Source of the DNA: Candidatus Polarisedimenticolia bacterium
GTDB lineage: Bacteria > Acidobacteriota > Polarisedimenticolia > Gp22-AA2 > AA152
Assembly: GCA_036004685.1 (NCBI GenBank)
Contig: DASYRE010000050.1
Span: 62,001-126,000 of the forward strand
Direction: 5' to 3'
Length of the DNA stretch: 64,000 nt
Shown here: positions 1 through 17,173 of the stretch, in pieces
How positions within the stretch are numbered: position 1 is the stretch's first letter
Layout: every line of letters starts with the position of its first letter
Translations under genes and position numbers: made by a program
Notes under the pieces: generated by a model
What the model was told of the DNA's origin: nothing
Seen by the model: only the letters and a program-made list of their open reading frames with translations
The model's database searches: none

Positions 1-1824
1 GGCCCCCACGACGAGCGCGAACAGAATGGCAATCCCGATATTCTGCGTGAGCCGCTGGCCGCGATCGAGCTGGAACGTCTTCATGCGCTCCGGCCGGGTC
101 CAGGGTCCGAGAATCCTGAAATAGACCGGCCGGTCCTGAAAGCTCGCCGCCTCGACCCGGATCTTGGTGCGCGTCTCGGGGAACTCCCCCTCCCAGGCGG
201 CGCGCGCGTCGGCATACGTGGGAGGCGTCCAGGTGGAGGCGGCCGGAGTGAAGCTCTGCACGTCCAACCCCGCCTGCCGGAAGAGCCGCGGCCAGTCGGG
301 TGCCTTGCCCTCCGATGCCTTGTCCGCCGCTTCTTCAACCTGCGGGGGCACGACCTCCAGGAGAAGCAGCCGGCCCCGAGGATCCAGCGCGACGGTCGCC
401 ATGCCCGAGATCGACTGAGGAGGCTCCGTCATGGTCACCCGCGTCAGACCGGGGTAACCGAGGATGGGCCGTGGACTCTGCCGGTACCAGAAGAAGAGCG
501 GCGCCGGCCGTTCCTTGGACAGCGCGTCCCAGCGCGTCACGGACGTGTCTTTTTCCTTCAGGTACTTCAGATAATCCTCGTCCACCACGAATCCTCTTAC
601 CGCGTCGGCCGCGGGAGCGGTGTGCCCCAACTCCTTCAGAATCTCTTCGGCCCGGTCCTGGAGAACCGCGGGAGACTTGTCCAGTCTCACCATGCCCAGG
701 AGGCTGTGCCGAGGGGACAACCAGAGGGCCAGGGCCGTCGAAAGCAGCGTGGCGATGAGGCACATCCAGGCGAGGCGCGGAGCGAGACCTCCTTCTTCCC
801 CCGCGGCGGCCACCACTTCCGGCGCCGGAGTCTCTCCGGCGGCCAGAGCGGCCGCCAGCGGATCGCCTCCCGGCAGGGAAGCCGCCACTGCCAAGGCGGA
901 AGCAGGGCGCTGGCGCGGATCCTTCTCCAGGCACCGCAGAATGGCCCGCTCGATCGCGGGATCGAGATCGGACACCAGCGTGCCGGGACTGACGAGCGAT
1001 TGCTCCTGGCGGTCGCGGATCAATTCCGTCAGGCTGCTGCCGCGCTTGAAAGGCGCCTTTCCCGTATACATTTGATAGAGGATGAGCCCCAGCGCGTAGA
1101 GATCGCTGCGGAGGGTGACCTCCTTCCCGGCTAGCTGCTCCGGAGCCATGTAGGCGGGCGTCCCCACCCGCACGTCCCCTTCCTTCATGTCCGCGGCCAG
1201 ACCCGCCAGGCCGAAATCGGTGATGCGAACCTTCCCCTGTCCATCGATCATGACGTTGGCGGGCTTCAGGTCGCGGTGGACCACGCCCTTGTCGTGGGCC
1301 GCGGCCAGACCGGCGCAGATCTGCCGGGCGATCTCCGTCGCCTTGTCGGGAGCGAAGCGCCCGATCCGTCGCAGCAGCGAGGAGAGGTCCTCTCCATCCA
1401 CGAATTCCATGGACAGAAAGCGCCGGCCGTCGACCTCGCCGATGTCGTAGACCCGGCACACGTTGGGGTGCGAGATGGTCCGGGCGATGCGCACCTCGGC
1501 CAGGAAACGCACCAGCCTCGCGGGGTCCTTCGCCAGAGCCTCCGGAAGGAACTTCAAAGCCACGGCCTGACTGAGCATCAGATCGTCGGCCCGATAGACT
1601 TCCCCCATGCCTCCCCGGCCGAGCAGCCCGATGATGCGATAACGGCCGGCCAGGATGGTGCCGGCCGTGAATCGTCCCTCGTCCAGCGAGCCGGAGCTCC
1701 CCGATCTGCCGGAAGGAACCAGATTGGTGGGAATCTCCGAAGTGGGAGTCAGCGCGTTGCCGCAGCGTGGGCAGAACCGACTATCGGCGGGCACCTGGCT
1801 GGAACATGCGAGGCAGGTCGGCAT
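1..1824 (-). CDS. Serine/threonine protein kinase with N-terminal zinc ribbon (3' end outside window)
   Basis: Open to the left window edge, so the C-terminus is missing (608 codons visible). The start is an ATG preceded by a purine-rich AGAAGGGCGG site. Residues 4-21 form a zinc ribbon (Cys4, Cys7, Cys18, Cys21). A Hanks-type kinase domain follows at about 60-320: glycine loop GRGGMGEVY, the lysine in VALKF, catalytic HRDLKPANV, DFGLAG and the GTPAYMAPEQ activation segment. A hydrophobic segment near residue 355 should be a membrane span, so the rest is probably extracytoplasmic. A second hydrophobic stretch begins near the window edge. The catalytic residues are intact, so an active membrane kinase is expected. 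Substrates cannot be read from the sequence. Confidence 0.93.
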   Translation of the reverse strand, partial: MPTCLACSSQVPADSRFCPRCGNALTPTSEIPTNLVPSGRSGSSGSLDEGRFTAGTILAGRYRIIGLLGRGGMGEVYRADDLMLSQAVALKFLPEALAKDPARLVRFLAEVRIARTISHPNVCRVYDIGEVDGRRFLSMEFVDGEDLSSLLRRIGRFAPDKATEIARQICAGLAAAHDKGVVHRDLKPANVMIDGQGKVRITDFGLAGLAADMKEGDVRVGTPAYMAPEQLAGKEVTLRSDLYALGLILYQMYTGKAPFKRGSSLTELIRDRQEQSLVSPGTLVSDLDPAIERAILRCLEKDPRQRPASALAVAASLPGGDPLAAALAAGETPAPEVVAAAGEEGGLAPRLAWMCLIATLLSTALALWLSPRHSLLGMVRLDKSPAVLQDRAEEILKELGHTAPAADAVRGFVVDEDYLKYLKEKDTSVTRWDALSKERPAPLFFWYRQSPRPILGYPGLTRVTMTEPPQSISGMATVALDPRGRLLLLEVVPPQVEEAADKASEGKAPDWPRLFRQAGLDVQSFTPAASTWTPPTYADARAAWEGEFPETRTKIRVEAASFQDRPVYFRILGPWTRPERMKTFQLDRGQRLTQNIGIAILFALVVGA

Positions 1825-2332
1825 CTCCGCCCTTCTCTTCGGATCGGCTCAACGCAGAACCGGCGCCAGACACGGACGCAAGATTCGCCGAGAGTCTAAT
1901 CCCCGGCGAGCCTCGACCGCAACGGGACGAGGAGCCCGACGATACGGTCAAGCACCTTGTCCTCGACTGCCTTCGTCATCACGCTCGCAAATTTGCCGTG
2001 TCGTAGGGCACACCGATGTACCGGGCGAGTCCGTTCAAGCGCCGGCGCACTTCCTCACATTTCCCGCACAGGGCGTCGCAACTACATCACAGCCGGAAGG
2101 TTGTTTTGGCACAAAGGATTGATAAGCCATGGGCCAGAGCCTGGAAACAAGCCACACCCAGGAGAGGTCTCGGCTAGAACTATGCGGGACCGCGACCCAA
2201 ACGGTCCGAGTTGCGTAAAGGACGGCTTGTCGGGAACGGTTGGGATCGTTGGGATTGTGTATGCCCGTTGTGGAAGAAAGGAAATTTGAGAGCGCATCTG
2301 GATTGGGACGTCATGCGTGCTAGGCGAGTCGA
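1825..2332. other. Gene-free interval, about 500 bp
   Basis: It lies upstream of the kinase and downstream of the small membrane-protein gene, both on the minus strand. Base composition is visibly less GC-rich than the flanks around 2090-2300, fitting a regulatory region. A short tandem GTTGGGAT repeat occurs near 2240-2256. Small open frames here have no good ribosome site or recognisable product. No convincing promoter was identified. Confidence 0.5.
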
Positions 2333-2611
2333 CTAGGCACGGTCCTTTCTTCTCGGCGCGTCCGATGTCCGGAGGCGCGGGCGAAACAGGGGGAAGACGG
2401 TGGCGGCGGTGAGGGACCAGAGGAAGAAGACGAAGCCGAGGAGGGCGCCGCGGTAGAGGAAGTAGCCGTGGGCGGCGGCGCGGCTGAAATCGGTGACCAT
2501 CGCGGGAGGGACGGTGCGGTTGAAGATGCGGAAGTACCAGTGCCCGGACAGCACACCGAGGATTTCGCTTCCGGCCAGAAGGATCAGGATTCCCCACCAC
2601 CGTCTTGACAT
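2333..2611 (-). CDS. Small membrane protein, unknown function (92 aa)
   Basis: I do not recognise a family. The start is well supported by GCAGGAGGCTCGC directly before the ATG. The protein has two hydrophobic segments, at about residues 5-22 (WWGILILLAGSEILGVL) and 50-72 (LYRGALLGFVFFLWSL), separated by a soluble loop, and ends in a very basic tail, which suggests a cytoplasmic C-terminus. It lies between the cyclase gene and the kinase gene on the same strand. The strong ribosome site and membrane topology argue that it is a real gene. Function is unassigned. Confidence 0.7.
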   Translation of the reverse strand: MSRRWWGILILLAGSEILGVLSGHWYFRIFNRTVPPAMVTDFSRAAAHGYFLYRGALLGFVFFLWSLTAATVFPLFRPRLRTSDAPRRKDRA

Positions 2612-2695
2612 GCGAGCCTCCTGCGTCGACTCCGTGACCAGCCTTCACGGGCCGATCTCTTACTCCGACTTGGCTGTCTAGTTCAACTGAGTTTC

Positions 2696-4711
2696 CTATT
2701 TCGACTCGATGACCATCACCCCGTCCCACCCTGGCGGGGGGGGCTCCGCCGCCAGGCGCTGGATGGCGCGGAGATAGAATTCGGAAGGGCCGTCCGCTCC
2801 TCCGCACAGCTCGCGCACGCTCTGGAATCCCTCGGCGGCTTCCTCGAAGCGCCGCGCCACGAAGGCCGCGAGCGCCCAATGGAACCTGTCGAGCGCGTCC
2901 GCGGGAATCCTCGCGGCCTCTCCGGCCTCCGCGAGCAGCTCGCAGACCTCCACCGCCTCGCTCCGGCCGACCACCTGGGCCCGCCCCAGCCGCCGGACCA
3001 GGAAGCCTCCGCCGGCCAGGTCCAGGGTCTCGCCGCTCACCAGGGCGCGCGTCCCCAGCGCCTTGTTCAGCCCCTCCAGCCGGGAAGCCAGGTTCACCGC
3101 GTCGCCGATGGCGGTGTAGTCGAAGCGCTGGGCCGAGCCGAGGTTTCCCACCAGCATCGGCCCGGTGTGGACGCCGATCCGCGTGATCAGCTTGCCGGCG
3201 GCCGGCGCCTCGTCCGGGCCGCCGTCGTCCTGACTCCTCGCCAGCGCCAGGGCGGCGCGGCAGGCCGCGGCCGCGTGGTCTTCGCGCCGCAGCGGCGCGT
3301 TCCAGATGGCGAAGACGGCGTCGCCGATGTACTTGATGAGCGTTCCCCCCTCCTCGAAGATGTGGCCCGTGACGCCGGAGAAGTAATCGTTGAGCAGCGC
3401 CGCGGTCTCCGGGGCGGTGAGCTTCTCGGCGATGGGGGTGAACCCTTTGATGTCGGTGAACAAGGCGGTGGCGACGATCTCCTCGCCTCCCAGGTTGAGC
3501 GTCCCGGGATTGGCCGCGATCTGCTGGATCATGTCGGGAGAAAGATAAAAGGAGAAGGCACGCCGGATGCGCTCGCGCTCGCGCGCCGTCGTCAGGTAGT
3601 ACCAGACGAGGCTCAGGACGTAGGCGGCCGGGAGCTGGACGAGCGTCGGGATAACGATCGGGATCCAAACGTGGCCGCGGGTGAAGGCGAGCAACCCGGC
3701 CACGGGCGGCAGGACCAGCAGGAGCAGGAACGCGGCGCCGCCGAGCAGGGGGCGCAGGGCCATGAAGGCCGCGATGGCGAGCAGGGGAAGGAGCAGCAGG
3801 AGGGCGGCCTCGGCCGCTCCCGGGAGGAGACCGATGCGCTTCCCTTCGAGGAGATTCGCCGCCAGGGTGGCGTGGATCTCCACGCCGAAGGTGCTCTCTC
3901 CGGAGGCGCCGCGGAAAGGAGTAAGGAACGCGTCCTTGGCCGCCGGTCCGGCCGCCGAGGAGCGGGCGATCCCGACGAACACGATCTTGCCTTTGAAGAA
4001 GCCGGCGGGAAGATGGCGCTCCGGCTCCAGCGCCTGGTAGAAGGAGACGGTGCGCACGCTGCGCGCCGGACCGTAGTAGTCGATGAGCCGGTCGGCCGCC
4101 TCGTGGAAGCGGCGGTCGGACGTCGCGACTTCGTAGGCCGCCAGCGCCAGGCTGGGACGGTCCTCATGCACCAGCCAGGCGCGGCGGATCACGCCGTCCC
4201 GATCGGTGGGCAGCCCGACGTCTCCGACGGCCGCGGCGGCGGAGGCGAAGGGAGAGTAGGGCTCGACGAGCTGGGCCCGGCGGAAGCGCGGATCCTCGGT
4301 GAGCTCCACGGTTTCGCCGAGGACGGCCTTTCCCGAGGCGCTCAAGGCCTGGCGGAAGGCTTCGTCTTCGGCGGCGTCGCGCGGCTTGTCGAACAGGATG
4401 TCGAAGGCGATGGTCCGCGCACCTTCCCGGGTAAGGGTCCGGATCAGCTCGGCGTGCAGGCGGCGCGGCCAGGGGAGAGCGGGATCGACGTCGAGGGCTT
4501 CGTAGGACTCGTCGTCGAGGACGACGACGCAGACGCCGTCCGGGGGCGCCTGCACGCCGCGCCACTGGAAGAGGAAGTCGAGCCCGTAGGTCTCGAGGCT
4601 CTCCGCGGGCGGCCAGTGCAGCAGCAGGATCCCGGCCAGGCCGGGGATCAGCGCGATCAGCAGCCCGGCCTGCAGCGCCCGCGAGCGATCCTGCCGGCTC
4701 CGGCGCGCCAT
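2696..4711 (-). CDS. Adenylate cyclase with CHASE2 sensor domain
   Basis: 671 aa. One N-terminal membrane span (about 14-31), then an extracytoplasmic CHASE2 sensor (about 35-285), three closely packed membrane spans (about 300-375), and a class III nucleotide cyclase domain from about 410. Metal-binding aspartates are Asp420 (FTDIKGF) and Asp464 (IGDAVFA). Lys460 just before the second one, and the later DYTAIGD motif, are the residues that specify ATP, so cAMP is the predicted product. A short TPR-like helical tail follows. The start lies one base after the stop of the upstream FecR-TPR-barrel gene, so the two are almost certainly co-translated. CHASE2 ligands are generally unknown. Confidence 0.93.
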   Translation of the reverse strand: MARRSRQDRSRALQAGLLIALIPGLAGILLLHWPPAESLETYGLDFLFQWRGVQAPPDGVCVVVLDDESYEALDVDPALPWPRRLHAELIRTLTREGARTIAFDILFDKPRDAAEDEAFRQALSASGKAVLGETVELTEDPRFRRAQLVEPYSPFASAAAAVGDVGLPTDRDGVIRRAWLVHEDRPSLALAAYEVATSDRRFHEAADRLIDYYGPARSVRTVSFYQALEPERHLPAGFFKGKIVFVGIARSSAAGPAAKDAFLTPFRGASGESTFGVEIHATLAANLLEGKRIGLLPGAAEAALLLLLPLLAIAAFMALRPLLGGAAFLLLLVLPPVAGLLAFTRGHVWIPIVIPTLVQLPAAYVLSLVWYYLTTARERERIRRAFSFYLSPDMIQQIAANPGTLNLGGEEIVATALFTDIKGFTPIAEKLTAPETAALLNDYFSGVTGHIFEEGGTLIKYIGDAVFAIWNAPLRREDHAAAACRAALALARSQDDGGPDEAPAAGKLITRIGVHTGPMLVGNLGSAQRFDYTAIGDAVNLASRLEGLNKALGTRALVSGETLDLAGGGFLVRRLGRAQVVGRSEAVEVCELLAEAGEAARIPADALDRFHWALAAFVARRFEEAAEGFQSVRELCGGADGPSEFYLRAIQRLAAEPPPPGWDGVMVIESK

Positions 4712-4712
4712 C

Positions 4713-7700
4713 TCAGTAGGTGAAGTTCACCCGCAGGGAGACGGTGCGGGCCGGGATCACCGTGTCCTGGATCGCCCGGTCGTAGAAGTCGAATTCCCGG
4801 TCGCTGACGTTCTGGGCCTCCAGGATCGCCGAGCCGAAGCGGCGCGGGAAGCGGTAGCCGACGTGCACGTTGCCGATCCAGAAGCGCGCGTTCACCGAGT
4901 TGCGGCTGTCGGAGGTGAGATCGTCGAACTGATCGACCTGCTGGCGGTAGAGGGTCGCGTCGCCGCCCGCGAAGAAGCCGTTGGGCAGGAAGAAGCGCGC
5001 CTGGGGCCGCAGCTTCGAAGTCCGGATGTAGTCCTGGAACAGACCGACGGGGCTGATGCGCGTGGAATCGAAATCCTCGGTGCGCAGCGCGTAGTCCACC
5101 CCGGCGGCGAAGCGCTTGCCCAGGGTCGCGTTCAGGTAGGCGCTGGAGAGAGTCTCCCGGCTGTCGCGATGGACGATGACGGTCGGGAGCTGGAAGGCGC
5201 AGCCGCTGAACGGATCCTCGGTGGTGCAGTAGGCCTCGGGGATGTCGAGCCGGCGGAAGAGCAGCGAAGCGCCGCCGAAGAGCCACTTGGCGAATTCCTG
5301 ATCGACGCCGGCCCCCCAGGAGCGGGAGCGGGTGCCGCCGGGCTCCTCGAAGAACTGGTTGAAGCCGGCGACCTGGGTCGGCTCCAGCGTCTGCAGGCGG
5401 CCGAGGTTCGGGCTGAGGCGGTAGAAGCCGGCGGCCCGCAGCGTCGTCTTCGAGCGCGCGTACCAGGAGACGCCCAGCTTCGGGCTGACGCGGGTCTCGG
5501 TGAACGGGACGTCGGCGGGCAGGATGTTCGAATCGCGCGGCGGGATCAGGCCGGCAGGCGACTCGACGCGCTCCACGGACGCTCCGGCGGTCACTTCGAA
5601 CGGCCCCATGCCGCGGAGCTTGGCGTAGGCGTAGCCGTTCCAGAACTTGTCGTCGCCGCTGTCGCTGCCGAAGGGCGACGAAAGCTCCACGTCGCCGTCG
5701 AACCCGCCCGCGCCGAAGATCCAGGCGATGCGCGAGGTCCGCCAGACGTCCTGGACCTCGAGCTGCGGCCCTTTCAAGGTACCCGTGTTGGTGATTCCGG
5801 AGCCGATAAAGCCGCCGCTCTGCTCCGTCTTGTTGTAGATCGCCGAGACGGCCAGGTCGTTGGCGGGCGTGAGGAGGTGGTGCCAGCCCAGCCCGATGTT
5901 GCTCTCTTCGGTTTCGAAGCGCTCGGGGAACTCCAGCGCCGGAATCTGGCGCAGCGGCAGATCGCCCGACTCGCGCCGGCCGCGCAGGAGATTCACCTGG
6001 AAGCTGTCGCGGTAGCCGGGGGAGTACTCGAAGAAGCCGCGGTAGACGGCGTTCTTGGCATCCGAGTTCACCCGGAAGCCTTCGTCGCGATCCTTGCGGT
6101 AGCTCAGCGCGGCGGCGTAGCGATCGCCATTGAGCGTGCCGGTGGCGTCGCCCGAGAACGAGCCGCTCTCGTCCAGCGTGATCGGATCGATGAAGGAGGG
6201 GTCGCTCGGGGACAGCTCCGAGAGATCGGTGTCGGTGCGGCGGGCTTCCACCCCGGCGAAGGCGCGCGGGCGGGGCCGGTCGAACAGCGCCGTGTACTCG
6301 TTGAACGAGACGCTCTCGTTGATCGCGTCGGGCCGCGCCGCGTTGGCGGAGACCGGCTGGTAGATGCGCGCCTGCAGGACTTCGCTCAGGAACGCGGGGG
6401 CGAAGAAGGGGACGTTGCGGTAGTTCCCCGACAGGAAATAGTGGGAGGAGAAGTTGGCCTGGTCCTGGTCGGCGCTGCGCCGCGCCGTGACCAGCCCGAG
6501 CTGCTCGAAGCCGAGGTCGTTGTAGATGCGCGCCAGGTCGGTTCCGCGCACGGCGCGGTCCTCGTCCAGGAGCAGGCGCGAGCGGTACACGCCGCGGCGA
6601 TCGTTGCGGTCGATCGATTCCTGCAGGTCCCCGAGCGCCTCCACGGGGCGGTTGTCGTTCTGCTTGCGGATGGCATCGTAGAGATAGGGCGTCGGATCGG
6701 AGGGATCCAGATCCTTGGCGGCGGCGAGCTCCTTGCCGGCTTCGGTGGTGCGCCGCTCCTCGTAATAGGCCTTCCCCAGGTACGAGCGCAGCAGGGAATC
6801 GGCCGGGTCGAGCAGCGCCGCCGTCTGCAGCTCCTCGCGGCCGGCCTGCACGTGTCCCCGCCTTATGCGGGTGATGCCGCGGCCCAGATGGGCCAGCGAG
6901 AAGTTGCCGTCGGCCGCCACCGCCTTGTCGAAGCTCTTCTCGGCCTCGTCAGTGTGGAAGTCGGCCAGCTCGACGAATCCCAGGACGGTGAGCGCGCGGG
7001 CGTCGCCGGGCGTGCGGCGCACCGCCTCCTCGGCGGCCTTCTTCGCTCCCTGGATGTCTCCTTCCGCCATGCGCAGCTCGGCGGCGCGGGCCAGCGCCAC
7101 GGAGCTTTTGGGATCGAGCTGGGCCGCTTTTTCGGCGAGCTCTCTGGCGCGCTCGATGCGGAACGAGGCTTGCGCGGCATACGAGCCCGCCAGCGCCGCG
7201 GCGGGAGACTTAGGGTCGGCTTTCATCGCCTCGTCCGCCAGGCGCGCCGCCTCTTCCTTGTGATCCATCGAAAGCTCGACGACCGAGGCGAGAGCCAGCG
7301 CCACCGGATCGGAGGGGTGCTCCTTGCGCGCCTTGCCGACGGCGGCGCGCGCTTCCTCGACCTGTCCTTCCGAGAGCATGTGGGCCGCTTTCGCCAGGGG
7401 CTTCCCGGCGTCGGCGTCGCTGCCGCCGAGCACCGGCGGATAGTAGAGCGCCCAAGCCACCGCGTCGCGCGGCTTCACCAGGATTCGCTTGACCGGCGCC
7501 TTGCCGCGCTCGACGTAGGCCTGCTCCCCTTTGCGGACCTCGAGGCTCCCTGCTTCATTCGATGCCAGGACCACTCCTTCCACCATGGTGATGGTGGTGG
7601 TGGAGTCCTCGGCGACCTCGATGGCGAATTCCGTCCCGCGGATGGCCGCCGTGACGGTCGGGGTCTCGATGCGCCCGTAGTCCTTCGGGGTGCGGCTGGA

Positions 7701-8117
7701 GAAGTAGTGCTTGCCGGAGAGGATCTGGAGCAAGGAGGGCTTTCCGGCGTCGGCCGGGACGATCTCGACCTCGCTCTTCTCGCCGATCCGGTGGAGGGTC
7801 TGATCGGAGTAGAGGATCGCGGCGCGGCTGGCGGCTCCGGTGCGCACCCGATCGCGATCGAAGAGGCTCTGTCCGACCGCGGAGGGGGACCAGGCCCCGC
7901 CCGCGCCTTGACGCGTCTCGACCTGGTTCTGCACGGCCTCGATCTTCGCCCGGCTCGGAGCCGAGTCGGCGGCTCCCCGCGCCGTCGTCGGGATCAGGAT
8001 CGATGCCGTCAGGAGAACGGCCGCGGACGCCCGGATGAGGCGTCGCACGGCAAATCCGGCGCGCGAAGATCCGGTTCGCGGTCGTTGCGCAACTCGGTCG
8101 CCCAGCGGCGCATTCAT
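4713..8117 (-). CDS. FecR-TPR-outer-membrane beta-barrel fusion protein
   Basis: 1134 aa. The basic N-terminus plus hydrophobic segment (about 25-48, ending ARGAADS) is a signal peptide. Residues about 55-200 are a FecR-type domain, with the typical IRGTEFAIEV stretch. About 245-490 are TPR repeats. From about 600 to the end the protein is rich in alternating aromatic/polar strands and terminates in RVNFTY; a C-terminal aromatic residue is usual for outer-membrane barrels. No TonB plug domain is evident, so it is not a normal TonB-dependent receptor. The start has GGGGGGAAACC before the ATG. FecR domains are known periplasmic signal relays. Coupling to the CHASE2 cyclase suggests envelope sensing, which is inference. 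Confidence 0.85.
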   Translation of the reverse strand: MNAPLGDRVAQRPRTGSSRAGFAVRRLIRASAAVLLTASILIPTTARGAADSAPSRAKIEAVQNQVETRQGAGGAWSPSAVGQSLFDRDRVRTGAASRAAILYSDQTLHRIGEKSEVEIVPADAGKPSLLQILSGKHYFSSRTPKDYGRIETPTVTAAIRGTEFAIEVAEDSTTTITMVEGVVLASNEAGSLEVRKGEQAYVERGKAPVKRILVKPRDAVAWALYYPPVLGGSDADAGKPLAKAAHMLSEGQVEEARAAVGKARKEHPSDPVALALASVVELSMDHKEEAARLADEAMKADPKSPAAALAGSYAAQASFRIERARELAEKAAQLDPKSSVALARAAELRMAEGDIQGAKKAAEEAVRRTPGDARALTVLGFVELADFHTDEAEKSFDKAVAADGNFSLAHLGRGITRIRRGHVQAGREELQTAALLDPADSLLRSYLGKAYYEERRTTEAGKELAAAKDLDPSDPTPYLYDAIRKQNDNRPVEALGDLQESIDRNDRRGVYRSRLLLDEDRAVRGTDLARIYNDLGFEQLGLVTARRSADQDQANFSSHYFLSGNYRNVPFFAPAFLSEVLQARIYQPVSANAARPDAINESVSFNEYTALFDRPRPRAFAGVEARRTDTDLSELSPSDPSFIDPITLDESGSFSGDATGTLNGDRYAAALSYRKDRDEGFRVNSDAKNAVYRGFFEYSPGYRDSFQVNLLRGRRESGDLPLRQIPALEFPERFETEESNIGLGWHHLLTPANDLAVSAIYNKTEQSGGFIGSGITNTGTLKGPQLEVQDVWRTSRIAWIFGAGGFDGDVELSSPFGSDSGDDKFWNGYAYAKLRGMGPFEVTAGASVERVESPAGLIPPRDSNILPADVPFTETRVSPKLGVSWYARSKTTLRAAGFYRLSPNLGRLQTLEPTQVAGFNQFFEEPGGTRSRSWGAGVDQEFAKWLFGGASLLFRRLDIPEAYCTTEDPFSGCAFQLPTVIVHRDSRETLSSAYLNATLGKRFAAGVDYALRTEDFDSTRISPVGLFQDYIRTSKLRPQARFFLPNGFFAGGDATLYRQQVDQFDDLTSDSRNSVNARFWIGNVHVGYRFPRRFGSAILEAQNVSDREFDFYDRAIQDTVIPARTVSLRVNFTY

Positions 8118-8138
8118 GGTTTCCCCCCTATATACGAT

Positions 8139-8173
8139 GGAGCCCCCCGCCGTTTCCCGGGGCGGAGGGCTCC
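8139..8173 (-). terminator. Strong GC hairpin between two genes, likely terminator or processing site
   Basis: Arms of 13 bases (8139-8151 and 8161-8173) pair with one G-T mismatch around a 9-base loop. It lies 20 bases beyond the stop of the Cys-rich protein gene and 20 bases before the FecR-barrel start. There is no clear U-run, so it may act as a weak terminator, an RNA stabiliser or a translation control element for the downstream gene. Confidence 0.5.
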
Positions 8174-8192
8174 ACGGTCTCGTCGCGCGAGC

Positions 8193-10412
8193 CTACTTGA
8201 TGTCCTTGAACAGCTCGAAGCCGGTCTTGAAGATCCTCGTCCCGGCGATCACGAACTTCATACGGTACTTGTGGGCCGACAGATCCTTGGTGCGCATCTG
8301 GTAGATCCATCCTCCCAGGCTGCTCTGGTAACGGAACTCAGGATCGAACTGGTTCGGAGAGTCGTTGATGTTGATTTTCGTCAGGTCCACCGGCTGGTTC
8401 GTGGTCAGGTCGAAGAGCTCGACGATCTTCGGCGGAAGCGCGTTGGTCGCGTCGAGGTTGAGGCCGCCGCAACTGAAGGTGAGCTTCAAGGGCCGCGTCT
8501 TGCCCAGCGCGAAGGGCTTCGGGGGCATGGGCAGCGAGCGCGGATCGTCCTCGGGAAAGGCGACGGCCATGGGGGCATACAGCCCCACGAAGCCGTCAAA
8601 GCCGTTCTGGATGTTGGTCGGATCGCACTTGCTGCCGATGCCGAGCGTCAGCGGCACGTCCTCGGAGACGGGGTTGCCGTTGGCCGAGCCGGTGAAGTGC
8701 AGCAGGAAGATGCGCGAGGTGTCGCCCAGGTAGTTGGCGTCCGTCGACAGGACGAACGAGCTGTTCCCCAGCTTGGGCGTCACCGCCGGAGGCGTGGAGC
8801 AGTTGCCGGTGGTGGCGGGTGTCCCCGGAATGTCGGGATAGCAGGCGGTGTCGGTCGAGATCGACACCGTCGTCGGGTTGTTGATTCCGTCGTTGGGCGT
8901 GAGATCCTGGGCGGGGCTGGAGATCTTGGCGCAGCCGCCGAAGAGGGTCGCGTACCCGGTATTGGCTACCGACACGTTGACCTTGACCGACTCGCCGGGC
9001 TGCCATAATCCGTCGCCGCTGGTGTCCTGGATGCTCACCGCGATCGGGCTGAGCGACATGGCGATCGTGCCGTTGGCCGGGCGGCTGGTATCGGGCACCA
9101 GCTGCAGGAACGGTCCGACGAAGGCGGAGCTGCCGTCGAGGCAGAGGTCGGTCGTGGGGTTCGGCGTGCTGCCGTCCAGGCAGACGTGGATGAAGCTCAG
9201 CACCTCTTTCGCCAGATAGCTCGCCGAGTTGCAGTTCAACGAGGTGCTCTGGCCCGAGGGAACCGTCTGGGTGGCCGCCTGCGTCTCGCAGACGGGCGCG
9301 GGGGGAGGCAGCGTGACGAGTACCTCCGGAGCGGCCAAAAGGTTGGAGGAGTTGGTGCCGGCTCCGGAGATGCAGAAGCAGGAGTTCCCCTGGCTGCAGG
9401 CGCCCTGTCCCGTGGACGGGCAGAGGGTGTTGCAGTTCACGCCGCAGCCGCCGCAGTTCTCGGCGTCGGTGTGGACGTTGACGCATTCGTTGTTGCAGGC
9501 CGTCTGCAAAGGCGAGATACAGGTGAAGCAGGCGGAGTTGGCGCAGATCTGGTTCGTTCCGCACGCGTGCCCGCAGGAACCGCAGTTCAGCGGATCGGAG
9601 GTGAGATCGACGCAATCGGCGCCGCACAGGGTCTGGCCGATGGGACAGGACGCCACGCAGGCACCGTTGTCGCAGAACTGGCCGTGCAGCGTGTCGCAAT
9701 GGATCCCGCAGCCCCCGCAGTTGCTCTCGTCGGTCAGGTAGTCGACGCAGGTGCCGCTGCAGTTGAGCTGGTTCGGAAACGGACAGCACCCGGGAGGTCC
9801 GGCGTCCAGATGGGCGGTCACGGCGCCGGCGGTGTAGTTGGTCAGCGTCGTGTTGTAGTTGACCTGGCCCGATCCGCCCTGCTGCGAGCTGGTCGTGGCG
9901 GTGACCAGGGTTTTCGGCGGGCTGAAGAAGGTGACCAGGCTGGAGGTGAGCGACGTGTTGGAGAGCGTCACGCCGGAGGTGCTGAGCGAGCGCCCCGGAA
10001 CAACGAACGGTCCGCGCGAAGTTCCCACGGGAAGTCCGGCCGTGGCCGTGAAGCAGATGTCATTGGTGCAGTTTTGGCCGGTGTAGGAGTAGATCGCCGA
10101 GGAAGTCTGCCAGGTCCACTTCGTGCCCACGCCCGTGGAGGTCCCGGCCGCCAGCGTGCCGTTCCAGGATCCCGGGCCCGCATTGGCCCATTTGAAAGTA
10201 AAGGCATTTCCGATCGACTTGTTCGTGAGGACGTTCTCGATCTTCGCGGGGTAGGTCGACAGCACGTTCAAGGTGACGCTGCTCTCGGCCGTCCCGTTTC
10301 CATCCAGGTCGACCGCCTTCGTAGCGGCCCGGACGATCAATCCTCCCAGAGTCACCATTGCTGCGAGGATGAGAAGGTACGTACAAGTACGTAGGACATG
10401 TCGTCGACGCAT
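8193..10412 (-). CDS. Secreted protein with Stig1-like cysteine-rich repeats
   Basis: About 739 aa from the ATG preceded by GCGGGGGATTTT; a longer open frame upstream has no supporting ribosome site. The N-terminus (MRRRHVLRTCTYLLILAAM) is a signal peptide. The centre holds three Cys-rich units of the form CxxxCVxxxxDxxNCGxCGxxC, each followed by CxxGxC-like pairs. Such units are common in secreted proteins of myxobacteria and relatives and resemble plant Stig1. The flanks are Ser/Thr/Asn-rich beta-type sequence; the C-terminal third resembles adhesin/CARDB-like domains (the IQDTSGDGLWQPGESV stretch). Probably a disulphide-stabilised surface or matrix protein. Function unknown. Confidence 0.75.
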   Translation of the reverse strand: MRRRHVLRTCTYLLILAAMVTLGGLIVRAATKAVDLDGNGTAESSVTLNVLSTYPAKIENVLTNKSIGNAFTFKWANAGPGSWNGTLAAGTSTGVGTKWTWQTSSAIYSYTGQNCTNDICFTATAGLPVGTSRGPFVVPGRSLSTSGVTLSNTSLTSSLVTFFSPPKTLVTATTSSQQGGSGQVNYNTTLTNYTAGAVTAHLDAGPPGCCPFPNQLNCSGTCVDYLTDESNCGGCGIHCDTLHGQFCDNGACVASCPIGQTLCGADCVDLTSDPLNCGSCGHACGTNQICANSACFTCISPLQTACNNECVNVHTDAENCGGCGVNCNTLCPSTGQGACSQGNSCFCISGAGTNSSNLLAAPEVLVTLPPPAPVCETQAATQTVPSGQSTSLNCNSASYLAKEVLSFIHVCLDGSTPNPTTDLCLDGSSAFVGPFLQLVPDTSRPANGTIAMSLSPIAVSIQDTSGDGLWQPGESVKVNVSVANTGYATLFGGCAKISSPAQDLTPNDGINNPTTVSISTDTACYPDIPGTPATTGNCSTPPAVTPKLGNSSFVLSTDANYLGDTSRIFLLHFTGSANGNPVSEDVPLTLGIGSKCDPTNIQNGFDGFVGLYAPMAVAFPEDDPRSLPMPPKPFALGKTRPLKLTFSCGGLNLDATNALPPKIVELFDLTTNQPVDLTKININDSPNQFDPEFRYQSSLGGWIYQMRTKDLSAHKYRMKFVIAGTRIFKTGFELFKDIK

Positions 10413-10496
10413 AAAATCCCCCGCTGAAATCGGCCCTCGCCGTCGCCCTGTCGCGATTTTGTTAGAATGCTTCCTCGATTGATCTTGCTGACCGGT

Positions 10497-10527
10497 TATT
10501 ATAACGACGGATCCGCCCCACTGGGGC
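10497..10527. promoter_or_regulatory. Divergent promoter region with palindrome
   Basis: A perfect TATAAT reads on the minus strand at 10503-10498, and an overlapping TATTAT on the plus strand at 10497-10502. Next to them the dyad GCCCCACTGGGGC (10515-10527) sits where a repressor could act. No good -35 was found in either direction, so a regulated or activator-dependent promoter for the Cys-rich protein gene is plausible but unproven. Confidence 0.4.
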
Positions 10528-10586
10528 AAGCTTTTTCAATCTTTCACGCCGAAGCCCGGGAAGACGAGCGGGGGAGGGGGACCCTT

Positions 10587-11423
10587 GTGAAGCGGCCCGT
10601 TTATCGTCTCCGGTTCTGGGGAGTGCGGGGAACCGTCCCCAGCCCGGCAGCGGACAAGCTCGAATTCGGCGGCAACACCATCTGTCTCTCCGCCGCCCTG
10701 GGGGACCGGGACTACCTGATTCTCGATTGCGGCAGCGGCCTCCGGCTGCTCGGGAGCCAGCTGGTGGGGCTGCGCAACCGCACCTCCCGCCGGTATCATA
10801 TCTTCCTGAGCCACTATCACTTCGACCACGTCGAAGGGCTCCCTTATTTTCCGCCGCTTTACGATCCCCACAGCATCATCACGTTCCATGGCTTCCGTTC
10901 CGGCCGGAAGTCGCCCCAGAAGATTCTGGAGACTCTGATAGCCCCGCCCTACTTCCCGGTCAAGCTCGCGGGGGTCCCTGCCCGGCTCCGGTACAAGACG
11001 GACGAAAGCTCTCCGTGGACGTTCAAAGATGTTCGCATCAGTTCTCTCCCCTTGCGTCATCCCAACGGCTCGCTCTCCTACCGGCTGGAGCACGCCGGCC
11101 GGCGGATCGTCTTCGCCACCGACCACGAGCACGGCGACGCCAAGACCGATCAGGCGCTGATCCGGTTCGCCGATCGCGCCGATTACCTGATCTACGACGC
11201 CACCTACATTCCGGGGGAATACGAGAGCCTGAGGCGGGGATGGGGGCACAGCACCTGGTACGCCGCGGTCCAGACCGCCCGCGCCGCCCGCGTCAAGACC
11301 CTGGTGCTCTTCCACCACCACCCCGATCACTCCGACCGGGACTTGAAGGAGATCCTGAGAGTGGCCCGCAAGGAGCTTCCGTCCACCCTGGCGGCGCGGG
11401 AAGGTATGGAACTGCCTTTTTAG
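10587..11423 (+). CDS. MBL-fold metal-dependent hydrolase
   Basis: About 278 aa from a GTG preceded by GCGGGGGAGGGGG; the open frame extends upstream to 10467 without a better start. The metallo-beta-lactamase signature is intact: SHYHFDH (HxHxDH), a later conserved FATDHEH, and a C-terminal FHHHPDHS. This arrangement (WGVRGTVPSP at the N-terminus, GGNTICL next) matches the cAMP-phosphodiesterase/RNase Z-like branch found in many environmental bacteria, often annotated as MBL-fold phosphodiesterase-like. The substrate is not established; a cyclic nucleotide is one possibility, interesting beside a cyclase two genes away. The TAG stop is the first three bases of a dispersed repeat. Confidence 0.85.
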   Translation: MKRPVYRLRFWGVRGTVPSPAADKLEFGGNTICLSAALGDRDYLILDCGSGLRLLGSQLVGLRNRTSRRYHIFLSHYHFDHVEGLPYFPPLYDPHSIITFHGFRSGRKSPQKILETLIAPPYFPVKLAGVPARLRYKTDESSPWTFKDVRISSLPLRHPNGSLSYRLEHAGRRIVFATDHEHGDAKTDQALIRFADRADYLIYDATYIPGEYESLRRGWGHSTWYAAVQTARAARVKTLVLFHHHPDHSDRDLKEILRVARKELPSTLAAREGMELPF

Positions 11424-11589
11424 TGTCGCGTCCCAGAAATCCCGTTGCATTCGACCGTCGATCCATCCCGGCTGGCTTCGTTGCACCTCGCTTACGTACC
11501 GGCTTCGGGTACGCCGCGCTCGGCGCGCCTTGCCATCCGGGGCGCCTCGAAGGTCTCGATGCTAACGTGATTTCTGAAACGCGATACTA
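11421..11589. repeat. Dispersed palindromic repeat, copy 1 (full-length, about 169 bp)
   Basis: Begins TAGTGTCGCGTCCCAGAAAT and ends with the imperfect inverse ATTTCTGAAACGCGATACTA. Its right end (CTCGATGCTAACGTGATTTC) is nearly identical to that of the 25276 copy; its left end (ATCCCGTTGCATT) matches the 14110 copy. No open frame inside. The first three bases form the stop codon of the MBL-fold gene. Confidence 0.8.
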
Positions 11590-11609
11590 TTCTATTAGTT
11601 AGCGGATAG

Positions 11610-13037
11610 TTAGGAGGGAAGGCGGCGGACGAGCAGCATCGTCATGTCGTCGATCTGAGGGCTCAGACCGCCGAAGCGCTCCACCTCCCGGACGATGAGC
11701 TCCAGAAGGCGCGACATCGGCTCCTGCTGATGGCGCCGGACCAGCTCCCCGACCCGGGCCTGCCCGAACGGCTCCGACAGGGCGTTTTCGTGCTCGAAGA
11801 TGCCGTCGGTGATCAGGGCCAGGATGTCGCCGGGGTCGAGCTGGTGCATGCGCGGAGAGGGCAGCGCCATCCCCGCGACGAAGCCCAAAGGAATCGTGGA
11901 CGCTCCGAGCCAGTCGCACTGCTCCGTGGCGGCGTGGAAGTGGAGGAGCGGCCCCTGACCTCCCGCGTGATAGATCACCCGGTGGCGCTCGGTGTCCAGC
12001 AACCCCAGGAAGGCCGTGACGAACCGGTTGTCGGGAAGGTCCTCGACCAGCTGGTCGTTGATGTGGCGAAAGGCGTCGTCCAGATCGGCGCCGAGCCGGA
12101 CGGCCATCCGCAGCATCGCCCGCACCTGCGTGACCGAAAGCGCGGGGCCGAGGCCGTGCCCGGTGGCGTCCCCGAGCAGGAGCATGAGCCGGTTTCCGTC
12201 CATGCCGATGATGTCGAAGATGTCGCCGCCGGTCTGATTGGCCGGGCGGCTCCAGCCGGCCAGGTCGTAGCCGGCGAGTCGCGGCACGGCTCGCGGCAGG
12301 ACCCTGATTTGAATGTCCCGCGCGACCGCGAGCTCCCGCTCCATCTTCTCCTTCTCCACGAGATCGGCGAGCATCTGGGTCCGCTGGATCGCCACGGCGC
12401 ACTGCGCGGCGAGGGCCGTCGCGATCCCCTGGTCCTCCTCGGTGAACACCCCGGTGTCCTTGTTCAGCACCTGCATGACGCCGACGAGCGAATCGTTGTA
12501 GCCGATCAGCGGAACGGTCAGCAGGCAGCGGGTGCGGTAGCCGGTCTTGAGATCGGATTCACGGTTGAAGCGCGAATCGGCGTAGCAGTCCGGGACGTTG
12601 ATCAGGCGGCGCGTCTCGGCGCACTCCCCGACGATCCCGCGGTTCGCCGGGAAGCGCAGCGACCCCACGCCGGTGGCGACGGTGGTGTAGAGCTCGCGGG
12701 TCCGGGGGTCGTATAGGAAGACACTGCCGCGGTCGGCGCGGAGGACGGTCCGGGCGGCGTCGATGACTTCCGTGAGCAGGGCGGTGAGATCGATCGGGGT
12801 CGCGAGCCGGCGGGTGACCTCGAGGATCCGCTCCATCGGATGGGCGCTGGGGGGCTGCCGGCGGGCTGGCGCTCCGGGAGCCTTCTTCTTCCGCGCCAGC
12901 TTCTTGGGTGCCTGCCTTCGGGTTGGCGGAGCGAGAGCCTTCTTCCGAGCCGGCGCTCGGGACGCCCGGGCTGGCGCGCTGGGAGTCTTCTTCCGGGCCG
13001 GCGCCCTGGGTGCTTGCTTCTTCCGGCCCCCCCCCAT
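11610..13037 (-). CDS. GAF-SpoIIE (PP2C-type) serine phosphatase with basic Ala/Pro/Lys tail
   Basis: 475 aa from an ATG with a very strong site (AAGGAGGAGGAGGGAC). Residues about 5-70 are a low-complexity Lys/Arg/Ala/Pro tail with recurrent APARKK-like units, resembling histone H1 tails. About 80-230 is a GAF domain (MERILEVTRRLA onwards). After a short coiled coil, the SpoIIE/PP2C phosphatase occupies about 255-475, with acidic metal sites in TGGDIFD, LLGDATGHG and the ITDGIFE and DDMTML motifs. Similar proteins dephosphorylate anti-anti-sigma factors, but none is encoded nearby. The tail could bind nucleic acid or acidic surfaces, which is inference. Confidence 0.92.
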   Translation of the reverse strand: MGGGRKKQAPRAPARKKTPSAPARASRAPARKKALAPPTRRQAPKKLARKKKAPGAPARRQPPSAHPMERILEVTRRLATPIDLTALLTEVIDAARTVLRADRGSVFLYDPRTRELYTTVATGVGSLRFPANRGIVGECAETRRLINVPDCYADSRFNRESDLKTGYRTRCLLTVPLIGYNDSLVGVMQVLNKDTGVFTEEDQGIATALAAQCAVAIQRTQMLADLVEKEKMERELAVARDIQIRVLPRAVPRLAGYDLAGWSRPANQTGGDIFDIIGMDGNRLMLLLGDATGHGLGPALSVTQVRAMLRMAVRLGADLDDAFRHINDQLVEDLPDNRFVTAFLGLLDTERHRVIYHAGGQGPLLHFHAATEQCDWLGASTIPLGFVAGMALPSPRMHQLDPGDILALITDGIFEHENALSEPFGQARVGELVRRHQQEPMSRLLELIVREVERFGGLSPQIDDMTMLLVRRLPS

Positions 13038-13082
13038 GTCCCTCCTCCTCCTTGGTTTCCTAGAGATTAGCAGAGAATGCAA

Positions 13083-13115
13083 GCGGTGCCTAACGCACCG
13101 GCGTTGTCGTATGAT
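13083..13115. promoter_or_regulatory. Divergent regulatory region: hairpin/operator plus TATGAT
   Basis: Between the divergent phosphatase and small-membrane-protein genes, a perfect inverted repeat CGGTGC-N5-GCACCG (13084-13100) is followed by TATGAT at 13110-13115 on the plus strand, a good -10 for the downstream operon. No matching -35 is present. The dyad may be an operator. Confidence 0.35.
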
Positions 13116-13154
13116 GGGGGCGCGAACCGATAGGACCGCTTGACAGGAGGCTCG

Positions 13155-13484
13155 GTGGCGAGCGCCGGCCGTCCCCCTCGAAAAGGGGTGGGCAAATCGA
13201 TCATCCTTGGCGCCGTTTTCGTGGCGGCGCTGCTGGCCCTGGTGATCTACGCCAGCTCCGGCTTGGGCCGCCACGCCTGCGAAGTCTGCCTCGACTTCGA
13301 GGGGCGGACGGCGTGCCGGAAAGCCGAGGGGAACACGGTCGAGGAAGCGCGCCGCACCGCGACCGACCTGGCCTGCGCCATGCTGTCCTCCGGCATGACC
13401 GAGAGCCTGCGATGCGCCAACACGCCGCCATCGAGCGTGACCTGCGACGGGACGCGCGCCTCAATTGCTGGGGGGCGGTACTAA
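13155..13484 (+). CDS. Small single-span membrane protein with Cys pairs (unknown)
   Basis: About 109 aa from a GTG preceded by AGGAGG four bases away; a TTG five codons upstream is less likely. A basic N-terminus precedes one membrane span (SIILGAVFVAALLALVIY). The short exported domain contains CEVCLDF, then three more cysteines, and an alanine-rich helix. It is not a family I recognise. It is the first gene of a three-gene plus-strand group with a 60-aa protein and ArfB, separated from the next start by only 9 bases. An envelope protein with disulphides or a metal site is plausible. Confidence 0.65.
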   Translation: MASAGRPPRKGVGKSIILGAVFVAALLALVIYASSGLGRHACEVCLDFEGRTACRKAEGNTVEEARRTATDLACAMLSSGMTESLRCANTPPSSVTCDGTRASIAGGRY

Positions 13485-13493
13485 GGAGCCGAC

Positions 13494-13676
13494 ATGAAGC
13501 ATGAGAGGACGCCGGGAGGGGGGCTGAAGCTGGAGCTGGACGATCGGGAGGCGCGGCTCCTGCGTTATCTCGCGGAGCGGGCGACGTTCGTCGACACCCC
13601 TCCGGAGGAGCAGGAATCGATCCTCCAGCTGGCGGAGCAGATCCTCGCCGCGCTGGGCCAGAAGCCGTCGCCGTGA
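13494..13676 (+). CDS. Small hypothetical protein (60 aa)
   Basis: An ATG with the site TAAGGAGCCGAC in front makes this a credible gene although short. The product is acidic and helical (LDDREARLLRYLAERATF, then EEQESILQLAEQILAALG). Its stop overlaps the start of arfB in a GTGA arrangement, so translation of the two is probably coupled. A role in regulating ArfB or ribosome rescue would be a guess; no domain is recognised. Confidence 0.65.
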   Translation: MKHERTPGGGLKLELDDREARLLRYLAERATFVDTPPEEQESILQLAEQILAALGQKPSP

Positions 13677-14107
13677 GCCGCGAGCCGGTCCACATTCTTC
13701 ACGGATTGTCGATCCCGGAAGACGAGCTGGAGCTCAGGACCTCGAAGAGCGGCGGCCCCGGCGGACAGAACGTCAACAAGGTGAACACCCGCGTCACCCT
13801 GCGCTTCGACGTGTTCCGCTCGCCGAGCCTGTCGGAGCAGCAGAAGCGGCGAATCGTCTCGCGCCTCGCGACGAAAATCACCGCCGCCGGCATCTTGCAC
13901 GTGACTTCCCGGAAGTCCCGCAGCCAGGCCGCCAACCGCGAAGCCGCGGAGGAGCGTTTCGCGGCGCTGCTGCGGGAGGCGCTGACCCCCAAGCTGGCGC
14001 GCCGGCGAACGGCGGCGCCGGCGGGCGCCGGGGCGGAGCGCTTGCGGGCGAAGAAGCGCCGCTCCCGGATCAAGCGGAGTCGATCCCTCCCGGGCTGGGA
14101 AGACTGA
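13673..14107 (+). CDS. arfB: Peptidyl-tRNA hydrolase ArfB (ribosome rescue)
   Basis: 144 aa. The catalytic GGQ loop is plain (SGGPGGQNVNK), followed by the typical VTLRFDV strand. The C-terminal tail is strongly basic (AKKRRSRIKRSRS), as needed to enter the empty mRNA channel of stalled ribosomes. Family members hydrolyse peptidyl-tRNA on non-stop complexes. The GTG start overlaps the upstream stop by four bases. A release factor RF1/RF2 is excluded by the short length and lack of the codon-recognition domain. Confidence 0.93.
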   Translation: MSREPVHILHGLSIPEDELELRTSKSGGPGGQNVNKVNTRVTLRFDVFRSPSLSEQQKRRIVSRLATKITAAGILHVTSRKSRSQAANREAAEERFAALLREALTPKLARRRTAAPAGAGAERLRAKKRRSRIKRSRSLPGWED

Positions 14108-14109
14108 TG

Positions 14110-14186
14110 TAGTGTCGCGTCTCCGAAAGCCCGTTAGCACCGAGGCCGACGGCCAAATGCAACGGGATTGAGGAGACGCGACACTA
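14110..14186. repeat. Dispersed palindromic repeat, copy 2 (77 bp, two identical-type ends inverted)
   Basis: Both ends are of the same type: TAGTGTCGCGTCTCC at the left and its exact inverse GGAGACGCGACACTA at the right (14172-14186), with CCCGTTAGCA and TGCAACGGG as an inner inverted pair. The right end supplies the TAG stop of the aldo/keto reductase gene (14186-14184). A long RNA hairpin is expected between two convergent genes, so it could also end transcription. Confidence 0.85.
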
Positions 14187-15164
14187 TCCCCAGGGCTCGG
14201 AAGCGCCGCGCTTGTACCAGGCGCAGTCGCTCGCGGCGGCCCGGGTGCGCGATTCGAGGGCCGCGCGCGCGGCCGCGGAGATCGGCTGGAAGCGCCGCCC
14301 CAGCGCCACGTTCTCCTCGAGCTGCCGCACCGAATCACAACCGATGATGACCGTCGAGACGGGCAGGCTCCAGACGTAGTCGACGCATTCCCTCATGGTG
14401 AGGCCCGATTTCGCCAGGAGCCTCCCGCGGGCGGGCACTTTCATGCCGATCACGCCCATCTTCTTGGCCGCCGCCGCCCCGAGGAGCTTCTCCTGGAAGG
14501 AGAGGTGATGCGGATCGGCGGCATTCAGCGCCATCAGGATGCAGTCGAAATCGAATCGCCGGATTCCCTCGAGGAGGCTGGCCGGGTCGTAATGGCCCGT
14601 GATTCCCAGGAAGCGCACCATCTTCTCCTCCCGTGCCCGCACCAGCGCCGCAAGCGACCCGTCCGGGCGGAAGATCGAATCGAGATCCTCCCGGTCGCTG
14701 ACGTGATGGAGCTGCCAGAGGTCGAGATGATCGGTGTTGAGGCGCTTCAGGCTGTTCTCCAGCAGGCGCAGCGAGCCGTCGCGGCTGCGATCGTCGGTCT
14801 TGCTGGCCAGGAAGGTCTCGGAGCGCCGCGTCTTGAGAACCTCGCCGAGGTAGTCCTGGCTCGGCCCGTACAGCGGCGCCGTGTCGCAATAGTTCACCCC
14901 GAGGTCGAGGGCGCGATGGATGATCCGCACCGCCTCCTGGCGCGCGGCGGAGCCGCGCTCCTCGAGCCGCGCCTGCCCTCCCAGGGAGAACAGCGCGACC
15001 TGATGGCCGGTGCGCCCCAGCGGGCGCTTCGGCATCGCCGCCGGCGCGGGAGTCTCGGCCGCCCGGCCCCGCGCCCGGATCGGATCGAGCGCCGCCAAGC
15101 CGAGCCCGGCGCCGCCGGCCAAGCCGATCTTCATGAACTCTCTGCGGTCCACCTTCTTGCCCAT
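14184..15164 (-). CDS. Aldo/keto reductase with Tat signal
   Basis: 326 aa. The N-terminus DRREFMKIGLAGGAGLGLAAL is a twin-arginine signal, so the folded, probably NADPH-loaded enzyme is sent to the periplasm. The AKR tetrad is present: Asp and Tyr in YCDTAPLYG, Lys in LASKTDD, His in LWQLHHV. The start has GGAGGCTCC before the ATG. It follows dinB on the same strand after about 85 bases. The substrate is unknown. Its stop codon lies inside a dispersed repeat. Confidence 0.9.
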   Translation of the reverse strand: MGKKVDRREFMKIGLAGGAGLGLAALDPIRARGRAAETPAPAAMPKRPLGRTGHQVALFSLGGQARLEERGSAARQEAVRIIHRALDLGVNYCDTAPLYGPSQDYLGEVLKTRRSETFLASKTDDRSRDGSLRLLENSLKRLNTDHLDLWQLHHVSDREDLDSIFRPDGSLAALVRAREEKMVRFLGITGHYDPASLLEGIRRFDFDCILMALNAADPHHLSFQEKLLGAAAAKKMGVIGMKVPARGRLLAKSGLTMRECVDYVWSLPVSTVIIGCDSVRQLEENVALGRRFQPISAAARAALESRTRAAASDCAWYKRGASEPWG

Positions 15165-15230
15165 GGAGCCTCCTTCGGAGATTCCGCCGAGGCGTCGTCC
15201 CGCCGGCGCCTCTCAGCAATAGCGTCAGGC

Positions 15231-15251
15231 GATTCGGGGGACGCGACTTTA
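15231..15251. repeat. Half copy of the dispersed palindromic repeat
   Basis: GATTCGGGGGACGCGACTTTA resembles the repeat end GATTTCGGAGACGCGACACTA at most positions. No partner end is visible. Its last bases form the TAA stop of dinB. Confidence 0.5.
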
Positions 15252-16484: not shown

Positions 16485-16525
16485 GACAGGAGACTACCCC
16501 ACCCGAAGCCGGGGCGCCAGCTGGG

Positions 16526-16577
16526 GTCGCGTCTCCGAAATCCCATTTACATGAGGCGGCTTGACCCGCGATGGGAT
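16526..16577. repeat. Partial dispersed repeat with hairpin
   Basis: GTCGCGTCTCCGAAATCCCAT matches the left end of the repeat family but lacks the outer TAGT. ATCCCAT (16540-16546) and ATGGGAT (16571-16577) can pair. It lies in the roughly 200-base gap between dinB and the downstream receiver gene; nothing else is recognised in that gap. Confidence 0.6.
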
Positions 16578-16685
16578 CGGTCGTCTGGTATCTCGCCCGG
16601 GCGAGGAATTCTTGCGGAGTGGGAACGTACGGGACATCAGGAAGGGATGCGGGCCTTCCGCCTTCTCCGTGAGGAGTGCTTCAAA

Positions 16686-17072
16686 TCAAGCCTGCACGAC
16701 GGAGGGGAGGGTCACCGGGCCGGTGCCGGAAGGCAGAGACGGCAATACGGTGGAGACCTGCGATTTCGGGATGAAGCCGTCCGCGCCGCTGCTCAGGGCC
16801 GCCTCCCGGTAAACGTCCCCGCCGAAGGCGCTCATCATGATGATCTGGATCCCGGGCTGTTTCTCCTTGATCAGACGGACCGCTTCCAGCCCGCAGATCC
16901 GCGGAATCGCCAGATCCATGAGGATCAGATCGGGCTCGAGGCTGCGAGAAAGTCGCACCGCCTCCTCCCCGTTCTTCGCTTCCCAGACCACGTCGTGGTC
17001 TCGCTTGGCGCGGAGAATCCGCTTGATGGCGGCCATGCATTTCGGATCGTCATCCACAATCAAGATTCTCAT
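16686..17072 (-). CDS. Single-domain response regulator (CheY-like)
   Basis: 128 aa, a receiver domain only. Acidic pocket Asp7-Asp9 (VDDDP), phospho-acceptor Asp53 (LILMDLAIP), the Ser of MMSAFG, and the Lys of FIPKSQ are all present, so it should be phosphorylatable. There is no output domain. The start has AAAAGGAGCTTGC before the ATG. It lies 230 bases beyond the stressosome-kinase operon, with a possible terminator between, so it may be transcribed separately. It is a plausible second target of that kinase. Confidence 0.92.
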   Translation of the reverse strand: MRILIVDDDPKCMAAIKRILRAKRDHDVVWEAKNGEEAVRLSRSLEPDLILMDLAIPRICGLEAVRLIKEKQPGIQIIMMSAFGGDVYREAALSSGADGFIPKSQVSTVLPSLPSGTGPVTLPSVVQA

Positions 17073-17173
17073 GCAAGCTCCTTTTCGCTTTCCCCACCCC
17101 AGGGCGCGGACTCAAGCGATCGGCTCAATCGAGTTCAGCGCAACGCGGACGCGCCGAAGCAAGCCAAGACCTG

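Follow-up and report, generated by a model that had tools for sequence, protein, structure and literature searches.

An acidobacterial FecR-TPR-barrel protein and its adjoining CHASE2 adenylate cyclase are a counterpart of the NsrA-CyaK pair

Two adjoining minus-strand genes of the window (the whole stretch of 64,000 nucleotides of Candidatus Polarisedimenticolia bacterium DNA analysed here) encode an outer-membrane protein, in which a FecR domain, TPRs and a large beta-barrel are joined in one chain, and a class III adenylate cyclase with a CHASE2 sensor. We conclude that this pair, from a soil member of the Acidobacteriota, is the counterpart of NsrA-CyaK of the plant symbiont Sinorhizobium meliloti, and that the type of system is already known. 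It is probable that the two genes form an NsrA-CyaK-type receptor-cyclase unit acting across the envelope, in which a ligand of the barrel would act through the FecR/TPR part on CHASE2 and, ultimately, on cAMP. What makes the pair of value is the breadth of barrel-CHASE2 conservation over several phyla, together with a testable hypothesis on how FecR and CHASE2 are connected.

The cyclase (2696..4711, minus strand, 671 aa) is CyaK-like, as judged from its Pfam domains, its residues and 35% identity to CyaK (BLASTP, E 1e-78). CHASE2, which is periplasmic, occupies residues 28-312 (Pfam, E 6.5e-46) and Guanylate_cyc residues 415-585 (Pfam, E 3.5e-20); the first membrane helix lies at about residues 10-31 and three more at about 298-386. 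The class III catalytic set is intact (D420, D464, K460, D531, N540 and R544) and is also kept in relatives of the cyclase. In class III cyclases, D420 and D464 stand for the metal aspartates, K460 and D531 for the adenine-specifying pair, and N540 and R544 for the transition-state residues. One base separates the stop of the barrel gene from the start of the cyclase gene (TGA-G-ATG at 4709..4715, minus strand; TAC TGA G ATG GCG on the coding strand), an arrangement which is consistent with translational coupling. The junction is kept tight in relatives from the window's class, with an overlap of at most 4 nt or a gap of at most about 5 nt. No NCBIfam equivalog scored over its cut-off for either the cyclase or the barrel protein.

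The barrel protein (4713..8117, minus strand, 1134 aa) was delimited from the open reading frame list, Pfam and an AlphaFold2 model, which was built from ten homologues and has a mean pLDDT of 71.7. Its start ATG at 8117 is preceded by a good Shine-Dalgarno sequence (AGGGGGGAAACC-ATG), and a signal peptide is found at about residues 24-52. The FecR domain (PF04773, E 1.8e-15) spans residues 89-183, that is 7569..7853 on the minus strand as computed from the residues, and in the model it lies within a beta domain of residues about 57-212; a sequence search of the PDB returned no solved relative of it. TPRs are recognised by Pfam at about residues 250-475, and the model shows the paired helices of a TPR array from about 240 to 585. 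Ahead of the first barrel strand there is a linker of residues about 500-617 (about 6267-6620, minus strand), where the NDRR-VYRSRLLLDED and FNEYTALFDRPR motifs are found; they are strongly conserved as NDxRAVYRSRxxLDxD and FNEYTxLF. Model confidence is partly low in this linker, which could be a stand-in for the missing plug.

The C-terminal part of the protein has no Pfam match; in the model, however, residues 618-1133 (4719..6266, minus strand) form 22 successive strands up to the chain end ...VNFTY. Residues 520-1134 fit TonB-dependent receptors, including FecA, PirA, FoxA, BtuB and Cir (Foldseek and VIA-align; Z about 18-21, rmsd 3.4-4.5 over 410-485 residues), and barrels of this class rank top by structural alignment (PirA Z 21.2, FoxA 20.1, Cir 20.1, BtuB 19.6). 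Two relatives also exceed the cut-off of 27 bits for the TonB-receptor family PF00593 (L182 with 46.4 bits, L164 with 28.1 bits). The Plug domain PF07715, on the other hand, was found neither in the window protein (complete Pfam list, E<=1) nor in six of its relatives (E<=0.01), so that the protein combines the modelled 22-strand barrel of a TonB-dependent receptor with the absence of its plug family. The preliminary description had named a CHASE2 adenylate cyclase, a chain fusing FecR, TPRs and an outer-membrane barrel, and a barrel stop one base ahead of the cyclase start, and all three of these proposals are borne out.

The pair resembles FecA-FecR-FecI, where an outer-membrane TonB-type barrel and a FecR domain also carry a surface signal inward. 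It differs in that barrel and FecR are one chain, no plug is recognised by sequence, no sigma factor adjoins and the output is a CHASE2 cyclase; no FecI gene adjoins the barrel gene, which is flanked by the cyclase gene on one side and by a STIG1-like gene on the other. With a Fec anti-sigma regulator the protein shares the PF04773 domain, while the cytoplasmic anti-sigma segment with its inner-membrane anchor, as well as FecI, are absent; in the window protein, which is an outer-membrane chain, the signal peptide precedes FecR.

A homologous pair was recovered when plasmids were searched with the window barrel protein. S. meliloti pSymB carries a barrel gene (1219 aa; FecR at 85-179, TPR, barrel) followed by a CHASE2-cyclase gene (649 aa), the two overlapping by 1 nt, and a near-identical pSymB record annotates them as nsrA ("signal perception protein") and cyaK. 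The latter agrees with the 2018 JB paper on NsrA, in which nsrA is said to lie immediately upstream of cyaK. The CHASE2 half of CyaK has a single match on pSymB, and CyaK is SMb20776 (PMC5498481). A profile comparison (hhalign) aligned 981 columns of the window barrel family with the NsrA family (100% probability, E 6e-41); the match of the barrel-only profile was weak (95.7% probability, 211 C-terminal columns). The two systems thus share a chain of about 1200 aa with FecR, TPR and a large barrel in the same order, a tightly adjoining same-strand gene for a CHASE2-class III cyclase of about 650 aa, and homology of both proteins. They differ in that one belongs to Alphaproteobacteria and the other to Acidobacteriota, and in that the barrel sequence has diverged here, so the ligand likely differs from that of NsrA. 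Moreover, S. meliloti has many class III cyclases (PMC5498481), whereas only one was found in the window genome.

NsrA is an outer-membrane protein with a barrel at aa 600-1200, which is needed for plant signal 1 via CyaK and for signal 1' via CyaD1/D2 (PMC7529298). The ribosomal uL2 protein is a candidate for signal 1 (PMC7529298, PMC13001267), and the S. meliloti CHASE2 cyclases sense through NsrA (PMC13001267). By analogy, the window's outer-membrane protein would act upstream of its CHASE2 cyclase, a direction that is supported by experiment in the homologous NsrA-CyaK system. The relay from barrel to CHASE2 to cAMP, which had been suggested from the letters of the window, therefore stands in outline, though not as something new, since a system of this kind has been described (PMC7529298).

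Conservation of the pairing was assessed with the linker and barrel only (alignment A3), so that the TPRs would not mislead the search. Among 247 Acidobacteriota genomes, 11 have a strong barrel homologue, and in nine of these a CHASE2 gene directly adjoins it. In one genome (G201) both genes of the barrel-CHASE2 pair are cut by contig ends, and in another (G172) CHASE2 is found on a different contig from the barrel, beside another FecR gene. All 11 barrel genomes contain CHASE2, in comparison to 62 of the 236 others (Fisher p 8.5e-7). In named genomes the same alignment yielded 80 loci, mostly from Pseudomonadota, Thermodesulfobacteriota, Nitrospirota and Myxococcota (three are from Acidobacteria, two of them repeats from the 247-genome sample). 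CHASE2 lies within 1 kb of the barrel in 52 of these loci, and in 32 of the 38 that have complete flanks (at least 2.5 kb on both sides), which leaves six without it within that distance. Where the genomes of non-adjacent loci were searched, CHASE2 was present elsewhere in all nine.

Neither the order nor the output of the pair is fixed. The CHASE2-cyclase gene lies upstream of the barrel in 40 loci, which is the order in most other phyla; the window's class and S. meliloti have the reverse order, with the barrel gene leading. Eight gammaproteobacterial barrels that form one clade (97/93 support) have a CHASE2-histidine kinase downstream in place of the cyclase; the kinase was confirmed by Pfam in five of the eight and is assigned in the rest by the absent cyclase domain. 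In L109, provisionally counted among the kinases in the tree, the contig breaks off inside the CHASE2 gene. Gene order thus flips and the output (cyclase or histidine kinase) varies between groups, and the barrel-CHASE2 pairing stays. The preliminary description had assumed that the two genes work together and would have been contradicted by rare adjacency elsewhere; the co-occurrence analysis gave the opposite result, both in Acidobacteriota and in the full-flank loci of other phyla, and persistence through flipped order and swapped output strongly supports a functional coupling. As a separate observation, two tandem FecR-containing barrel-type genes are present in L128, L156, L165, L167, L170 and L193 (Nitrosomonas, Methylomonas, Thiodiazotropha and others); a single CHASE2 gene is visible in four of these six loci.

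It could be argued that the barrel is a substrate transporter or exporter, either a TonB-type uptake barrel or a TPR porin like PgaA or BcsC, that the cyclase regulates its expression or activity, that the two genes are merely co-regulated, and that CHASE2 senses alone. The barrel fold does match TonB-dependent transporters, and TPR-barrel export porins exist, with weak matches of PgaA and BcsC TPRs to the barrel protein. However, no Plug family match was found in the window protein, and porins of the PgaA type are expected to have 16 strands rather than 22. Furthermore, NsrA acts upstream of cyclases in S. meliloti (PMC7529298), and the CHASE2-histidine kinases beside the same barrel family indicate that CHASE2, and not cAMP, is the constant partner. 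We thus regard the transporter explanation as rather unlikely. A PgaA/BcsC-type exporter had also been considered as the main idea and was rejected on its strand number and on the homology to NsrA; that porins of this kind are absent from the structural matches listed for the barrel does not count against it.

FecR is found beside CHASE2 also without a barrel, and this has to be weighed separately. Barrel-less FecR partners of CHASE2 in Acidobacteriota comprise proteins of about 230 aa and others. In the BiofilmReg operon of Burkholderia contaminans, the gene of a periplasmic FecR-domain protein likewise lies directly beside a CHASE2 sensor gene; it differs from the window pair in that the protein is a LysM-FecR without a barrel and that the sensor is a CHASE2 histidine kinase with a response regulator and no cyclase (PMC5192318). 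A neighbourhood of FecR and CHASE2 has been described as well for the CHASE2 adenylate cyclase clusters of Campylobacterota, where, unlike the fused chain of the window, FecR-OMP and TPR are reported to be distinct proteins and a phosphodiesterase is present (PMC9239204). The barrel-less partners in Acidobacteriota and the LysM-FecR in Burkholderia would suit a reading in which FecR-TPR itself senses the state of the periplasm or peptidoglycan, with the barrel as a mere anchor, and a mechanical or envelope-stress signal is passed to CHASE2. We nevertheless find this improbable, as NsrA responds to an added extracellular protein, which according to the authors' proposal is recognised by the external loops of the barrel (PMC7529298). 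For the same reason the "envelope state", which the preliminary description had taken to be the signal, is not supported.

Some of these FecR-CHASE2 loci have features of their own. In twelve Acidobacteriota loci (L054, L055, L057, L058, L067, L070, L095, L097, L102, L108, L111 and L112) CHASE2 and a downstream FecR gene, whose product is mostly of about 230-260 aa (301 aa in L070), stand at a constant distance of about 1.35-1.40 kb, and this is a different, conserved FecR-CHASE2 architecture. Giant FecR-domain proteins are encoded directly 3' of CHASE2 genes in L064 (2462 aa, 10334-17722) and L079 (2208 aa, 1550-8176). The CHASE2 protein of L090 (5389-9152), whose gene overlaps an upstream FecR gene, has a C-terminus that reads HD-GYP-like and is possibly a third output type of the FecR-CHASE2 pairing.

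That the genes are chance neighbours or passive hitchhikers without a functional link, as the few non-adjacent barrel homologues might suggest, is strongly contradicted and very improbable, since the genes stay adjacent in different phyla even where their order is flipped and the output exchanged, a partner that switches side and output yet keeps CHASE2 not being explained by two-gene hitchhiking, and since a FecR gene lies within 3 kb of 31 of 80 Acidobacteriota CHASE2 loci, on the same strand in all 31, against 0.46 expected from genome-wide FecR density (Poisson about 1e-45 with relatedness ignored; the loci span many families).

In the receptor-cyclase reading, which we prefer, the protein would be held in the outer membrane by its 22-strand barrel of the TonB-receptor type, for which no plug is recognised, and its TPR and FecR parts would lie in the periplasm. 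Binding of an external ligand to the surface loops of the barrel would alter how the periplasmic FecR/TPR part is positioned or exposed. This part would then contact CHASE2 of the inner-membrane cyclase, the cyclase dimer would be altered and cAMP would rise, presumably acting via one of the two cNMP-binding proteins that the genome encodes. That the FecR domain, and not the barrel itself, contacts CHASE2 is the best remaining inference, because FecR and CHASE2 are what the pairings with a barrel-FecR, a LysM-FecR or a small FecR protein have in common. In a mirror-tree analysis the partial correlation of FecR, TPR and barrel with CHASE2 given the cyclase was 0.44-0.58, and with the cyclase given CHASE2 0.30-0.32, the bootstrap intervals of the difference including zero. 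On a broader scale, we tentatively propose, with slightly less than even confidence, that FecR-CHASE2 is a general trans-envelope joint: FecR, carried on barrel, LysM or other periplasmic chains, would be the common ligand of CHASE2, and the output would be interchangeable (cyclase, histidine kinase, possibly HD-GYP). The window pair would then be one instance, in effect a FecA-like barrel and FecR joined in one chain, with the output redirected from a sigma factor to cAMP.

The surroundings of the pair are as follows. Directly upstream lies a gene (8193-10529, minus strand) whose 778-aa product contains a cysteine-rich stretch resembling STIG1 (PF04885, 3.6e-10). The intergenic stretch between this gene and the pair (8118..8192, minus strand) holds a strong GC-rich hairpin, GGAGCCCTCCGCC...GGCGGGGGGCTCC (-39 kcal/mol for 76 nt), without a T-run; given this hairpin, the pair may be its own unit. 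A simple promoter scan gave no match for the pair, and no phosphodiesterase gene was noticed adjoining it. A GAF-SpoIIE phosphatase encoded nearby (11610-13274, minus strand; PF07228, 4.2e-39) is likely a partner-switching regulator. Four FecR genes are present in this genome; its one CHASE2 protein (PF05226) and its one detected class III cyclase (PF00211) are both the window cyclase, and no class I cyclase (PF01295) was found.

The ligand of CHASE2, a common sensor domain, has been reported as unknown (PMC5192318), and the FecR pairing, kept despite changed order and output, offers a concrete candidate partner for it. The single case of NsrA-CyaK is thereby extended to a widespread design, in which signals from the cell surface cross the envelope and are handed on to a second messenger. 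In the bacterium studied here, the pair would control the only class III source of cAMP detected in the genome.
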